A stretch of 64,000 bases of DNA, taken from the NCBI RefSeq assembly GCF_002102355.1, contig NZ_LQPT01000101.1, forward strand, positions 124,001-188,000. Reading direction: 5' to 3'. The notes under the pieces were generated by a model. It was not told the origin of the DNA. It ran no database searches and saw only the letters and a program-made list of their open reading frames with translations. Positions within the stretch are counted from its first letter, which is position 1. Every line of letters begins with the position of its first letter. Source of the DNA: Mycobacterium sherrisii (lineage in GTDB: Bacteria; Actinomycetota; Actinomycetes; Mycobacteriales; Mycobacteriaceae). The position numbers and the translations under genes were made by a program. Positions 14,409 through 44,597 of the stretch are shown here, piece by piece.

Positions 14409-15016
14409 TGCACGCCGCGGCCGGCATTGCGTTGGCCCTTCTGACGGCGTTCGGCGTGCTCGGATTCGGTTGGCGCAGTTGGCTACAGTACCGGCGCACT
14501 GGTTCCGCTGGCCTTCGCCGGATCAGCGGCGGACCCATCGAATGGCTTGCAGGCGCGGGGTTTGTGCTCGCGCTGGCGGTGACGGTAAGCGCCCCGCTCG
14601 CCCAGCTGGGTGACCTCATCGCGCCACCGCGTGTGTTGAACGACGGCCGGATTCAGGCCGCAGGGATTGTGATTGCGTTGGGTGGCATCGCGGCGACGGT
14701 GTATGCGCAACTGGTGATGGGCGATTCGTGGCGGATCGGGGTGGACAAACGCGAGACCACGCCGCTGGTGACCACCGGTATCTTCGGGCGGGTGCGCAAT
14801 CCGATCTACACGGCCATGTTCGTGTTTGCCCTCGGCATCACACTGGTGACGCCGAATGTCGTTGCGCTGATCGGCTTCGTCCTGCTCGTCGCGACGGTCG
14901 AGCTGCAGGTGCGCCGGGTCGAGGAGCCGCACTTGCGGCGCGTCCACGGCGATACATATGCGGCGTACACGGAAAGTGTCGGCCGCTTCGTTCCGGGCGT
15001 CGGGTTGATTCGTTAG
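14408..15016 (+). CDS. Isoprenylcysteine carboxyl methyltransferase-like membrane protein (Rv2437-like)
   Basis: 202-residue integral membrane protein of the ICMT/PEMT family. About five transmembrane helices; the SAM-binding core is FGRVRNPIYTAMFVFALG, followed by the C-terminal VRRVEEPHLRRVHGDTYAAY signature. Bacterial members methylate small lipids or unknown substrates; the substrate here is unknown. Start ATG at 14408 overlaps the rbsK stop (TGATG); a GTG at 14405 is an equally in-frame alternative. The stop overlaps that of the convergent GntR gene by 4 bases. Confidence 0.82.
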   Translation: MHAAAGIALALLTAFGVLGFGWRSWLQYRRTGSAGLRRISGGPIEWLAGAGFVLALAVTVSAPLAQLGDLIAPPRVLNDGRIQAAGIVIALGGIAATVYAQLVMGDSWRIGVDKRETTPLVTTGIFGRVRNPIYTAMFVFALGITLVTPNVVALIGFVLLVATVELQVRRVEEPHLRRVHGDTYAAYTESVGRFVPGVGLIR

Positions 15017-15831
15017 CGCGGGTCTCGGCGCACATCGTGGGCGATCGCAAAACCGCCACCGGTCTCCAACTCCGCCGCCGACTGAGTCATCAGCACGCGA
15101 CTACGGCTCGGCGACAACACAATTGATAGGTAGTGGTGTGGTTGGTCGGCGACGAAAGCGACCCGGTTGACGCGGAGCAGCGCCGCGCCGATGGCGGTGT
15201 CCAACAGGTGGGCGCTGCGCGGACCGGCGATCTCGGCGGTGATTTCGTGTTGTACCCGCTGGACGACGACGCCGAGACCGGAGAGCAGCTCGTAGAGCGG
15301 CTCGCGCTGTAGGGCCGGCACCGTCAACCGCTCCGCCAGTGCGCTGGGCAGCCAGGCTTCGGTGATGATCAATGGCTCGCCGGTCCTGCGTTGCCGCCGC
15401 AACCGGACGATCTGCAGCAGCTCCTCAGACGTCTGCAAAGCGTCGGCGACGAATCGCGGCGGGCGCCGGCGCGGGTCGAGTTCGAGCACTTCGACCTCGG
15501 TCTCGAACTGGGCCTGCCGCAGTCCGTCCAGATAAGAGCCGCTGGCGGCGGCCAGTGTGGTCGAGCCGTGCTCACACACGAACGAACCGACGCCGCGCCT
15601 GCGCTCGATGTAGCCCTGGTCGGCCAGGTCGGCCAGCGCACGACGGACCGTGATCCGCGAAACCCCGAACTGGTCGCACAGCGTTTGCTCGGTGGGTAGT
15701 GCGTCACCGGGGGACAACACGCCGCGGTCGATTTCGTCGTGCAGCACTAGAAAAAGCTGCCGGTGCAGCGGCACCCCGGCCCCGGCGGATACCGGACCGT
15801 TCGCCGCGCTGGCCTGCCGCATGGTCGCCAT
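15013..15831 (-). CDS. GntR-family regulator, HutC subfamily (UTRA domain)
   Basis: 272-residue transcription factor. Winged helix at residues about 20-90 (PLHRQLFLVLHDEIDRGVL, LPTEQTLCDQFGVSRITVRR, IERRRGVGSFV) and a C-terminal UTRA ligand-binding domain (VLELDPRRRPP, ITEAWLPSALAERL, VQRVQHEITAEIAG, LLRVNRVAFVADQPHHYLSI). It is divergent from the lyase/dehydratase operon at 15952-18650, and a perfect palindrome lies between the two start codons, so it probably represses that operon and itself. Start ATG at 15831 is preferred; ATG at 15822 is possible, and the longer frame would run into the palindrome. Confidence 0.9.
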   Translation of the reverse strand: MATMRQASAANGPVSAGAGVPLHRQLFLVLHDEIDRGVLSPGDALPTEQTLCDQFGVSRITVRRALADLADQGYIERRRGVGSFVCEHGSTTLAAASGSYLDGLRQAQFETEVEVLELDPRRRPPRFVADALQTSEELLQIVRLRRQRRTGEPLIITEAWLPSALAERLTVPALQREPLYELLSGLGVVVQRVQHEITAEIAGPRSAHLLDTAIGAALLRVNRVAFVADQPHHYLSIVLSPSRSRVLMTQSAAELETGGGFAIAHDVRRDPR

Positions 15832-15851
15832 GCTCCCACACCGCCCGCATT

Positions 15852-15903
15852 GCGCCGACCCCATCGGTTGTTATATACATATAACAACCGATGGGGTCGG
15901 CGC
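15852..15903. promoter_or_regulatory. Perfect 25-bp-arm palindrome between divergent GntR and lyase genes
   Basis: Two 25-base arms (15852-15876 and 15879-15903) that are exact reverse complements, with a 2-base centre. The centre is AT-rich (GTTATATACATATAAC, a GT...AC GntR-type operator with -10-like TATAAC on both strands) while the outer arms are GC-rich. It lies 21 bases from the GntR start and 49 from the lyase start. Likely operator plus symmetrical divergent promoter; the full length is longer than one dimer site needs and both transcripts could fold it as a hairpin. Confidence 0.85.
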
Positions 15904-15951
15904 GGAGGTCCGCCGCGCCCGACGCGGGGATCCCGGACTGAAAGGACGCCG

Positions 15952-16854
15952 ATGGCCACCACCCGCACAATCGAGGCCCGGCGGCGCCTGCGGGAGCTGC
16001 TGGACAAACGCGAACTCATCGTCGCGCCAGGGGTTTTCGACGGAATCTCGGCGCAACTGACCAAACGCACCGGGCACGTCGCGGCCTACCTGACCGGGGC
16101 GGGCGTCGCCGCCGCCGGCTTCGGCCTGCCCGACATCGGATTGGTCAGCGCGACCGAAATGTCCGAGCGAGCCCGGGTGATCGTCGGCGCGCTCGGCGAT
16201 GTCCCGCTGATCGCCGACGCCGACACCGGCTACGGCGCGCCGATGAACGTGGTGCGGACCGTGCGGGCCTATGACGACGCCGGAGTCGCGGCAATTCAGT
16301 TGGAGGATCAGGTCTTTCCCAAGCGCTGCGGTCACTTGCCGGACAAGCAGGTCGTCGACACGGCCGTGTTCGAGCAGACGCTGGCGGCCGCGCTCGACGC
16401 CAGATCCGACAACAACCTCCTCGTCGTGGCCCGCACCGACGCCCGGGCGCCGCTCGGCCTGGACGCGGCCATCGAACGGGCGAACCGTTACGCCCAGGCG
16501 GGTGCCGACATCATCTTCGTGGAGGCACCCCGAGGAGCCGAGGAAATCGAGCGCATCGGACGCGAAGTCGACGCCCCGCTGCTGATCAATTTGGTGTTGG
16601 GCGGGGTGACCCCGTTGCTGCCGGCGACGCGTCTGCAAGAGCTCGGCTACGCGATCGCGATCCATCCCGGCGATCTGCTGGTGCGCGCCACATTGGCTAT
16701 GCTGCAGCGCCTTTGCGAGCTCAACGGCACCTCAAAAGAAGATGCCGCCGCGCACCTGCCCGCCAACCCGGCCGATTTCTTCAACCTTGTCGGCATGGCC
16801 GAATGGCTGCAACTGGACACCAAATACGCACAGCGGGAGCGCTCATGGGCATGA
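15952..16854 (+). CDS. Isocitrate lyase/PEP mutase superfamily lyase (2,3-dimethylmalate or methylisocitrate lyase type)
   Basis: 300-residue TIM-barrel enzyme. Superfamily metal and substrate residues are visible: YLTGAGVAA, DADTGYGAPMNV, the acidic EDQ, and the flexible active-site loop FPKRCGHLPDKQ. The Lys-Arg-Cys-Gly-His block carries the catalytic Cys of true C-C lyases, unlike PEP mutases. Start ATG at 15952 has GAAAGGA upstream. Because the next two genes encode an aconitase-type dehydratase (large and small subunits), the arrangement resembles the dimethylmaleate hydratase/2,3-dimethylmalate lyase pair of nicotinate degradation, which yields propionate and pyruvate. Methylisocitrate lyase is the alternative. 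Which substrate is used is an inference. Confidence 0.85.
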   Translation: MATTRTIEARRRLRELLDKRELIVAPGVFDGISAQLTKRTGHVAAYLTGAGVAAAGFGLPDIGLVSATEMSERARVIVGALGDVPLIADADTGYGAPMNVVRTVRAYDDAGVAAIQLEDQVFPKRCGHLPDKQVVDTAVFEQTLAAALDARSDNNLLVVARTDARAPLGLDAAIERANRYAQAGADIIFVEAPRGAEEIERIGREVDAPLLINLVLGGVTPLLPATRLQELGYAIAIHPGDLLVRATLAMLQRLCELNGTSKEDAAAHLPANPADFFNLVGMAEWLQLDTKYAQRERSWA

Positions 16855-18092
16855 CCATCATCGAGAAGATCCTTTCCTGCAAGGCAGGACTGGACTCGGT
16901 GTCGCCAGGCGAGACCGTCGTCGTCGACGTCGACATGACCGTGCTGATTGACCTGCAATTCGCGACCATGTGGATCCAGCCCACCCGGATCCATGATCCC
17001 GACAAGCTGGCCGTCGTCATGGACCACGCCGTGCCCGCACCGACCATCAAAGATGCGGCCGGCGGGCCACGCGCCCGCAAGTTCGTCGCCGACTTCGGCA
17101 TCGAACGCTTTTACGACGTCGGCCGGCACGGCATCTGTCACCAGGTCATCGCCGAGAACGGCCTGGCACGCCCCGGCGAGATCCTGGCCTGTACCGATTC
17201 CCACACCTGCGCGGCCGGCGCGTACAACACCGCCGCCCGCGGCCTGGGGCCCGCCGAGGTGTACTCGATCATGTGCACCGGCACCACCTGGTTTCAGGTC
17301 GCGCCGACCATCAGGTACGAGTTGGACGGCATCAAGCCAGACACCGTCAGCGGCAAGGACATCTTTCTGCATATTGCCGACAAGTACGGCGACGCCGCGA
17401 ACATGAACCTGGAATTCGGCGGCCCCGGCCTGGCCGGCGTTCCGATGCACGACCGGCGCACCATCGCAACCCAGGCCGCCGAAATCTCGGCCGACTTCAG
17501 CACCTTCGAGTCCGACGACGTGCTGGCCCGATTCCTGGCTGAGGCCGGTGTGACCGGATATGCCTCGGCCGCACCGGATTCCGACGCGTCCTACCACGCG
17601 GTGCGCCACATCGACCTGTCGGTCCTGGAACCCTACGTGGCACGGCCGGGCACGGTCAGCCGCAACGGGTTGCCCGTCTCGCAGTTGGGGAGGCAGCGGG
17701 TGGACCAGGCATTCATCGGATCGTGCGCAAACGGTCAACTCGAGGACCTCGCGATCGCCGCACACGTGTTGCGGGGCAACTCGGTGGCCCCCGGCGTGCG
17801 ACTGCTGGTCACCCCGGCTTCCCAAGCGGTCTACCGACAGGCGATGCGGCTGGGCTATTTGCAAGACATCGCCGACGCGGGAGGCGTCGTCACCAACTCC
17901 ACCTGTGGGGCGTGCTTCGGCTACCACATGGGCGTCGTCGGGCCCGGCGAGGTGTGCATCACGTCGAGCACGCGCAACTTCACCGGACGCATGGGCAGCA
18001 CCGAGGCCGAGATCTACCTGGCCTCCCCGGCGACGGTGGCCGCGTCGGCGATCACCAGATTCATCACCGACCCAAGGAGTGTGCCGGCATGA
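16845..18092 (+). CDS. Aconitase/3-isopropylmalate dehydratase-type large subunit (LeuC/DmdA-like)
   Basis: 415-residue 4Fe-4S dehydratase large subunit. Early motifs [21 protein letters not shown] and [20 protein letters not shown], then the cluster ligands: Cys in [13 protein letters not shown] and the two Cys of [13 protein letters not shown], and [19 protein letters not shown] near the end. The lack of a fused swivel domain and the CGACFG form match the separate-subunit LeuC/homoaconitase/dimethylmalate dehydratase group rather than aconitase. Start ATG at 16845 has GGGAG 6 bases upstream and overlaps the lyase by 10 bases; ATG at 16851 would give an ATGA overlap. The small subunit starts inside its stop codon. 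Confidence 0.88.
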
Positions 18093-18650
18093 GCGTGCGG
18101 TTCTCCGGCCGGGTGTGGGTGTTCGGCGACGACCTCAACACCGACGCCATGTACCCCGCATTCGCGATGAAGATGGAACCACCCGAAGCGGCCAGACACA
18201 TCTTCTACGAGGTCCGCCCCCGGCTGGGCCGATCAGGTTTGCCCGGGCGACATCGTGCTGGCCGGGAAGAATTTCGGCGTCGGCTCCTCGCGACCGGTGG
18301 CCGCGCTGTTCACCGAGTTGGGTATCGCCGGGCTGGTCGCCGAGGAATTCAATTCGCTGTTCTTCCGCAATGCCGTGAACGCCGGCCTGCCCGCGATCAC
18401 CGTGCCCAACGCCACCGCCGTGTTCAGCGAGGGAGATTGTGGAATCTTCGACCTCGACGCGGGCAGTTGGCGCAATGACAGCACCGGAGCGGAGGGGTCG
18501 GTTCCGAAGCCGCCCCGCCTGATCCTCGAGATCCTGGAAAGCGGCGGCGTCATGCCCCGGCTGGCCGCACAGGGCTATCTGCCCGCCGAACTCGGCGACC
18601 TGCTCCGCTCGAGTGCGGTCGCCATGCGCGGTTCCGGAAGCGGCGCCTGA
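18089..18650 (+). pseudogene. Aconitase-type small subunit (LeuD/DmdB-like), frameshifted
   Basis: The swivel-domain partner of the preceding large subunit, split by one base. From ATG 18089 the frame gives [20 protein letters not shown] to FYEVRP, then goes out of frame; the frame that continues reads [20 protein letters not shown] (with [10 protein letters not shown] following) to the stop at 18650. The break is in a run of five C at 18217-18221; with four C the two parts join as one protein of about 186 residues with normal family length. Either a sequencing error in the homopolymer or a real inactivating (or phase-variable) mutation. The ATGA overlap with the large-subunit gene shows it was made as its partner. 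Confidence 0.85.
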
Positions 18651-43493: not shown

Positions 43494-44597
43494 CTAGTCG
43501 ACGGTCCAGGTGTCGCGCCCGCGCAACAACGATTGGAGGGCGGCGGCGTCGAATGGGGTCGACGACCGGGCCGCGGCGACCTGGGCGCGGGCAGCGTCGT
43601 CATAGGTGGGCCGGGTGATATCCCGGAAGATCCCTAGCACGGTGTGATCCAGGTTCTGCTCCGAAAGCCGCGACAGGGCGAACGCGTACGCGGAGTTGTC
43701 GGCGTGCGCGTCGTGCTTGACGATCTCGTCGACCGCCACGTCGGCAGTCTTGGCCACCTCGAGGCTGAAGCCGGACTTCACCACGCAGTATTCGCCGTTG
43801 GCGCCGAACACAATTGGCTCGCCGTGCCGGACGTTGATCACCCGGTCCTCGGCGCCCTCCTTGCGCAGCGCGTCGAACGAACCGTCGTTGAAGATCGGGC
43901 AATCCTGCAGGATCTCGACCACTGCGGCGCCACGGTGCTCGGCCGCGCCGCGCAGCACCTCGGTCAGCCCGGCCCGGTCGGAGTCAAGTGCCCGGCCGAC
44001 AAAGGTCGCCTCGGCGCCCAGCGCCAGCGAGACCGGGTTGAACGGATGGTCCAGCGACCCCATCGGCGTCGACTTGGTGATCTTGCCAACCTCGGACGTC
44101 GGCGAATACTGGCCCTTGGTCAACCCGTAGATCCTGTTGTTGAACAACAGGATCGTGATGTTGACGTTGCGGCGCAGCGCGTGGATCAGGTGATTACCGC
44201 CGATCGACAGCGCGTCGCCGTCGCCGGTGACCACCCACACCGACAGGTCCTCGCGGGCCAGCGCCAAACCGGTGGCGATCGCCGGGGCGCGACCGTGGAT
44301 CGAGTGAAACCCGTAGGTCTCCAGGTAGTACGGGAACCGGCTGGAGCAGCCGATCCCGCTGACGAAGACGATGTTCTCCCGGCGCAGCCCCAGCTCCGGC
44401 AGGAAGTTGCGGATGGTGTTGAGGATGACGTAGTCGCCACAGCCCGGGCACCAGCGCACCTCTTGGTCGCTGGTGAAGTCCTTACTCTTCTGCGGCTGAT
44501 CCTCTGGGGTCAACGCGGGCACGCCGTCGTTCTTTTTCAGCCTCGGCGTCAACCCGAGGTCCGTGCCCGCCAGGTCGCCAGCAATCCCACTCGTCAT
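43494..44597 (-). CDS. korB: 2-oxoglutarate:ferredoxin oxidoreductase, beta subunit
   Basis: 367-residue TPP-dependent beta subunit. CPGCGDYVILN cluster ligands near residue 50, TPP motif VVTGDGDALSIGGNHLIHAL with NITILLFNNRIYGLTKGQYS, and VEILQDCPIFNDGSF. With KorA it decarboxylates 2-oxoglutarate to succinyl-CoA and reduces ferredoxin, an oxygen-tolerant bypass of the 2-oxoglutarate dehydrogenase complex in mycobacteria. Start overlaps the korA stop (ATGA). Confidence 0.95.
   Translation of the reverse strand: MTSGIAGDLAGTDLGLTPRLKKNDGVPALTPEDQPQKSKDFTSDQEVRWCPGCGDYVILNTIRNFLPELGLRRENIVFVSGIGCSSRFPYYLETYGFHSIHGRAPAIATGLALAREDLSVWVVTGDGDALSIGGNHLIHALRRNVNITILLFNNRIYGLTKGQYSPTSEVGKITKSTPMGSLDHPFNPVSLALGAEATFVGRALDSDRAGLTEVLRGAAEHRGAAVVEILQDCPIFNDGSFDALRKEGAEDRVINVRHGEPIVFGANGEYCVVKSGFSLEVAKTADVAVDEIVKHDAHADNSAYAFALSRLSEQNLDHTVLGIFRDITRPTYDDAARAQVAAARSSTPFDAAALQSLLRGRDTWTVD

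Follow-up and report, generated by a model that had tools for sequence, protein, structure and literature searches.

Regulators of the HutC subfamily of the GntR family, which combine a GntR with a UTRA domain, provide the closest described systems. NagR/YvoA and DasR, and SdhR where long symmetry is concerned, act at a single palindrome that forms a divergon with the regulator gene. According to PMC4494728, most HutC-subfamily operators follow the pattern NyGTMTAKACNy, with GT and AC 4 nt apart and with named exceptions, and PMC2018728 gives two predicted HutC operators in Mycobacterium smegmatis, 12-14 bp in length. Our searches of the literature on template switching, GntR/HutC operators, cruciform operators and mycobacterial quasi-palindromes found no description of the palindrome or the gene cluster analyzed here.

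The locus lies in a 64,000-nucleotide stretch of the Mycobacterium sherrisii genome, referred to below as the window. On the minus strand, it encodes a GntR-family regulator of 272 amino acids (15013..15831) in which both the GntR domain (PF00392, 70.3 bits) and the UTRA domain (PF07702, 65.1 bits) score above the Pfam cut-offs. The start was taken as 15831, where 23 of 30 relatives align from the first residue; an alternative, longer reading starts at 15864, inside the palindrome. The regulator reaches 101.4 bits against the equivalog of the HutC histidine-utilisation repressor, TIGR02018, below its cut-off of 220. Its solved relatives by sequence include 2ra5, DasR and YvoA, and its closest named relatives (79-81% identity) come from Mycobacterium sp. 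1100029.7, M. genavense, M. ahvazicum and M. montefiorense. On the plus strand lie a lyase of the PEP-mutase/isocitrate-lyase superfamily, methylisocitrate-lyase-like (15952..16854; PF13714 above cut-off, TIGR02317 below), an aconitase/LeuC-like large subunit (16845..18092; PF00330 and NF001614 above cut-off), and a LeuD-like small subunit that is broken into two frames (18089..18650).

Between the divergent gntR and lyase genes, as the earlier note had placed it, positions 15852..15903 read GCGCCGACCCCATCGGTTGTTATATA-CATATAACAACCGATGGGGTCGGCGC, a perfect 52-bp palindrome with 25-base arms around a 2-base centre. That description proved exact. With centres of up to 8 bases allowed, the other perfect inverted repeats in the window have arms of 13 bases at most. 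At the matching-pair probability of 0.278 given by the window's composition, about 8e-9 such palindromes are expected per window, and the 15 pairs beyond the conserved core would arise by chance with a probability of about 5e-9. Folded as single-stranded DNA, the 52-mer reaches -31.4 kcal/mol (z -12.4). The palindrome is nested, each outer arm forming a small inverted repeat of its own, CCGA-5-TCGG (15854-15868 and 15887-15901). Another palindrome, at 44130-44154, was considered as a control operator and dropped, as it lies inside a long open reading frame taken for coding.

Comparison with related loci reduced the conserved part to the middle 22 bp, GTTGTTATATACATATAACAAC (15867..15888), with the form GTTGTTAT-N6-ATAACAAC. 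The query GTTGTTATATNNATATAACAAC occurs once in the genome of M. sherrisii with up to 3 mismatches allowed. Across 30 loci found by GntR homology, the form is present without mismatch in 26, with two mismatches in 2 and with three in 1; in the remaining locus, from M. genavense, the core is absent even at 3 mismatches. Among 396 genomes of the genus, 53 carry the core at no more than one mismatch, always at a single site, and 52 of the 53 have a gntR match within the stretch fetched around it. When 198 genomes within this set were searched anew, the core (at most one mismatch) was present in 21 and a lyase of at least 74% identity in 22, with all 21 falling within the 22. In the one additional lyase-bearing genome, the contig starts inside prpD, and the expected position of the core is beyond the contig end. 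Because the core tracks one locus this closely and sits between divergent genes, the simplest reading is that it is the operator of the regulator encoded there. We conclude that the 22-bp core is probably the operator of the adjacent GntR protein, with binding inferred from sequence comparison. For this core, then, the comparison supports the operator proposed in the earlier note: it is in the same place in 26 of 30 loci and follows the locus genome by genome.

For closer comparison, we reduced 59 distinct sites with flanks to 55 by dropping three with two or three core mismatches (L056, L058 and L061) and one with no gntR nearby (L076). Numbering arm positions outward from the centre, positions 3-11 are paired in 91-100% of the 55 sites. 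Two of the dropped sites, L058 and L061, have degenerate cores with little symmetry and count against full conservation. L056, from M. lepraemurium, combines a degenerate core, with three mismatches, and a fragmented prpD match; operator and operon seem to be decaying together. A separate palindrome in genome G354 (L122, positions 2405-2426) carries the same GTTGTTAT-N6-ATAACAAC letters with 16-base symmetry just past the stop (2371) of a nadE-like frame, named by eye, in a locus lacking matches to gntR, prpD and lyase. Because nadE neighbours the locus in the window, this palindrome may be a relic.

The length of the palindrome fared differently from its core. Pairing runs 0-6 positions past the core in 53 of 55 sites, 10 in L020 and 15 in the window, whose arms are the only ones to reach position 26. 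The 52-bp length is thus real here and not cluster-wide, being absent from all 54 other sites compared; the search beside homologous clusters that the earlier note had suggested returns the core and not the long arms. A midpoint-rooted FastTree phylogeny of the gntR stretch, drawn without support values, places the window beside seven sisters (L032, L034, L037, L107, L108, L111 and L071), in which the run past the core is 3-6. This shorter symmetry in sister loci is what a template switch in the window's lineage would leave, and comparison with the sisters also bears on which arm was copied. The left outer arm (positions 17-26; 15852..15861) begins with the GCGCC of TTGCGCC, a motif found in the left flank of all seven sisters and of the window. 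The right outer arm (positions 17-26; 15894..15903) is its reverse complement and has no sister counterpart: GGCGC occurs at right positions 12-34 in the window only, 1 of 55 loci and none of the seven sisters. At position 16, the left flank has C in the window, L107 and L037; on the right, L107 and L037 have a mismatching C and the window a pairing G. With TTGCGCC shared on the left and GGCGC unique on the right, copying from left to right would explain the pattern best. The mid-arm CCC at positions 17-19 is in neither sister flank, so the direction of copying rests on the outer end and position 16.

The long arms were most likely made by copying of one flank onto the other, and the right arm looks like a template-switch copy of the left. 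Template switching can bring about both arm homogenisation and spacer inversion, according to PMC8604942. The window palindrome has the centre TACA, found otherwise only in L078, and 27 of 55 sites, 3 of the 7 sisters among them, have TGTA; spacer inversion would turn TGTA into TACA, and two transitions would do as well. L020, which also has no prpD beside its site, may be a second, shorter case of arm lengthening. We found no intermediate state in close relatives: the 7.8 kb examined in G089, the genome nearest by nadE, lack gntR, lyase and leuC alike, and 8 of 12 further genomes (L152-L157, L159 and L160) have neither leuC nor a close lyase and so offer no intermediates. Among those eight, L157 has a 32% lyase match and is the only one with part of gntR. 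L161-L163 have the full gntR-prpD-lyase-leuC row. In L158 (5160-5260), gntR and a prpD fragment are kept and the palindrome is gone, with the TTGCGC of the left flank running into prpD sequence; from this junction, a deletion appears to have removed the operator.

The window also differs from most relatives in its gene content. A gene of the MmgE/PrpD family (PF03972, PF19305) is present in the stretches of 45 of the 55 sites, between the palindrome and the lyase wherever the stretch covers both. The M. sherrisii genome has no close prpD, only a 30% match elsewhere. What is left of it appears to be the plus-strand segment 15909..15941, whose DNA aligns with the 3′ ends of relatives' prpD genes and whose translation, SAAPDAGIPD followed by a stop, matches 6 of 10 residues of the L037 end, LAAPVAGALD; together these indicate that prpD was deleted down to about its last ten codons and stop. 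Just upstream on the same strand, GGAGGTCCG (15904..15912) resembles, by eye, GGAGATCCG in L107, L108 and L111 and is a probable relic of the prpD ribosome-binding region. We had considered prpD deletion and arm copying as one event, BLASTN having first put the deletion junction at the right arm. The resemblance of GGAGGTCCG to the sisters' ribosome-binding region means that copy and deletion may be two events. No prpD match was found in L014, L015, L019, L020, L040, L063, L077, L084 and L104 either; the L077 locus retains a 3′ prpD remnant (seen in L123), and L104 lies near a contig end. The loss of prpD and the split in leuD suggest an operon in decay, or an assembly error in leuD.

Between the core and the outer arms are two 5-bp shoulders (arm positions 12-16; left, 15862..15866, and right, 15889..15893), whose letters vary among species while their complementarity is kept. 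Leaving out the window and L020, positions 12, 13, 14, 15 and 16 are complementary in 40, 32, 31, 26 and 26 of 53 sites, against 28.9, 15.1, 19.1, 15.3 and 19.2 expected when right flanks are shuffled among loci, a shuffling that ignores relatedness. The symmetry of ordinary sites then drops abruptly, from 26 of 53 at position 16 to 4 of 53 at position 17; positions 17 and 18, complementary in 4 and 6 sites, fall below the shuffled level of 13.2 and 13.8. We also compared own with exchanged flanks in greedy nearest-neighbour pairs, a swap test that largely respects relatedness, with some pairs distant (up to 33% apart in the gntR stretch). At positions 12-16, own flanks did better in 16 pairs, worse in 1 and equally well in 9 (26 pairs; p 0.0003), and with the window and L020 included, better in 16, worse in 2 and equally well in 9 (27 pairs; p 0.001). 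Positions 17-31 of the same sites served as an internal negative control: the result was 6 to 11 with 9 ties at 17-21 (p 0.33), 7 to 6 with 13 ties at 22-26, and 9 to 4 with 13 ties at 27-31. With all 55 sites, scoring by run length past the core gave 20 to 1 with 6 ties (27 pairs), and scoring by paired positions among 12-20 gave 18 to 3. Covariation at positions 12-16 is firm. Depletion at 17-18 is only suggestive, because the shuffles ignore relatedness and the swap test at 17-21 returned the p value given above.

The covariation does not follow the protein in any simple way. The recognition helix, SRITVRRAL, is identical in 55 of 55 proteins and the wing is nearly so. In the subset of 23 loci without any difference in helix or wing, pairing holds at 3.22 of 5 shoulder positions against 2.14 after shuffling, a level attained in 0 of 10,000 shuffles; here the swap test gives 9 to 0 with 2 ties (11 pairs). 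A drifting preference of the homodimer is therefore a poor explanation, unless contacts are made elsewhere, for example by the N-terminal arm. Two candidates are left: a selected DNA structure, and mutation by copying of one arm onto the other. Against the latter, at least two mirrored changes within positions 12-16 are present in only 3 of 26 sister pairs, so block copies of the shoulders are rarely seen. Isolated paired changes are uninformative on the mutation process according to PMC8794818, which likewise reports no enrichment of paired changes together with loop inversion in that study.

TATAAC is present on both strands of the core, and the left flanks carry TTGC at an almost constant spacing in 53 of 55 sites and TTGCGC in 31 of 55; in the window, TTGCGC (15850..15855, plus strand) could be the -35 element of a rightward promoter. 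These motifs make the symmetrical promoter envisaged in the earlier note plausible, although a sigma-70 scan found no promoter. Such a negative scan says little in mycobacteria. If transcripts do start just outside the core, none from these promoters would span both arms, which would tell against the RNA hairpin also suggested there. An RNA element (hairpin, attenuator or bidirectional terminator) in a transcript crossing the palindrome would account for the strong folding, and a scan of 15700-16050 returned 5 terminator-like sites against 0.2 in shuffled sequence; 3 of these are 5-bp dyads inside the arms. Against it, the 25-bp stem is followed by no T run on either strand, as an intrinsic terminator would need; wobble pairs are not enriched at 12-16 (20 of 110 non-Watson-Crick cells with the window left out, against about 17.5% expected); and only one arm would be present in any transcript that begins just beyond the core. 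An Rfam search at E up to 1 gave five matches, all below their gathering scores, which we took as chance matches to a perfect hairpin and rejected as evidence of an RNA family. We consider an RNA element very improbable.

A selected DNA structure has more to recommend it. Negative supercoiling between the divergent promoters could extrude a cruciform or DNA hairpin, whose stem outside the core would need pairing and not particular letters; the window would have a stronger version of it. This fits the way the shoulders covary without sequence conservation, also in the identical-helix loci, as well as the abrupt stop of complementarity at position 16, the sub-shuffle level at 17-18 and the folding of the 52-mer. 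The sub-shuffle level, however, comes from the relatedness-blind shuffles, pairing stops at the edge of the core in 13 of 55 sites, which means that a long stem is not required, and our literature search for cruciform operators at divergent promoters yielded only a review; we regard this explanation as unlikely, though not negligible. The symmetric sites of homodimers change in step, and a longer protein site, in which GntR or two dimers read shoulders and outer arms and both half-sites shift together with the homodimer's preference, would produce covariation of this kind. The 26-bp palindrome with additional symmetry of SdhR, itself of the HutC subfamily, and the extra boxes near GntR-family sites, both reported in PMC4494728, lend it some plausibility. 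It is nevertheless at odds with shoulders that differ under one and the same recognition helix and a nearly constant wing, and that go on covarying where helix and wing are identical, and we think it distinctly unlikely. Chance or an assembly artefact might be invoked for a single copy seen in a draft genome of 128 contigs. The expectation under chance, together with the recurrence of the core at one site each in 53 genomes, leaves that possibility next to nil and has already refuted it for the core.

On balance, we favour a reading that we think rather probable, in which a single-copy core operator of a HutC/UTRA-type GntR regulator has had its arms lengthened by a template switch, the added length being a mutational product. 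The operator would lie between, and probably overlap, the divergent promoters of gntR and of the prpD/lyase/leuCD operon, and a GntR dimer on the 22-bp core would repress both directions until released by a metabolite; comparison across loci supports such a divergent operator. In the M. sherrisii genome, a template-switch (quasipalindrome) event would have written the reverse complement of the left flank across the short spacer that separated the operator from the former prpD ribosome-binding site, adding 10 bp of mirror symmetry to each arm (positions 17-26). Such a local mutational extension probably accounts for the long arms, and the extra length would not make a longer binding site. Counting against this reading, the abrupt end of symmetry at position 16 in ordinary sites is not predicted by random template switching, and the spacing of GT and AC is 12 where HutC operators usually have 4. 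A more tentative proposal, to which we give less than even weight, is that positions 12-16 bear the signature of a paired stem in a place where transcripts from these promoters should not include both arms. The site could then be a cruciform operator whose stem length is fixed at 16, or a template-switch hot spot that keeps re-symmetrising the operator, in which case the window would preserve one long event. The shoulder covariation is a real puzzle, to be explained by recurrent template switching or a selected DNA structure, and it is the part most worth following, beyond what the earlier note had seen. Covarying positions are usually taken to demonstrate RNA structure, and operator symmetry to demonstrate contacts by a dimer. 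With its dozens of orthologues and a DNA-reading helix that does not change, this locus tells the two readings apart, and it offers a natural test of whether the replication machinery or DNA structure, and not protein contacts, can maintain the symmetry of bacterial operators.

The operon of relatives resembles methylcitrate-cycle modules (PrpD, aconitase, PrpB) in uniting an MmgE/PrpD gene, an aconitase-like pair and a methylisocitrate-lyase-like lyase. It differs in that the proteins here score below the NCBIfam equivalog cut-offs, with the LeuC-like protein passing two subfamily models, and in that the M. sherrisii window has lost prpD and has a broken leuD. In L037 (2493-3938 and the rest of the operon), PrpD-like, LeuCD-like and methylisocitrate-lyase-like genes stand together, none of them reaching an equivalog cut-off, and look like a parallel methylcitrate-type pathway. 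With template-switch (quasipalindrome) mutations, as treated in PMC8794818, PMC8604942 and PMC7202029, the palindrome shares an arm that is the exact reverse complement of the other, multi-base paired changes and a possible spacer inversion. The cases treated there concern RNA genes, yeast coding DNA and E. coli mutagenesis, unlike the present one, which would be a bacterial operator traced across species. As in the HutC-subfamily systems, there is one site per core-bearing genome, nearly always beside gntR. Unlike those operators, this one has its innermost GT and AC 12 nt apart instead of 4, a core of 22 bp, shoulders that vary while remaining complementary and, in this genome, arms of 25 bases.
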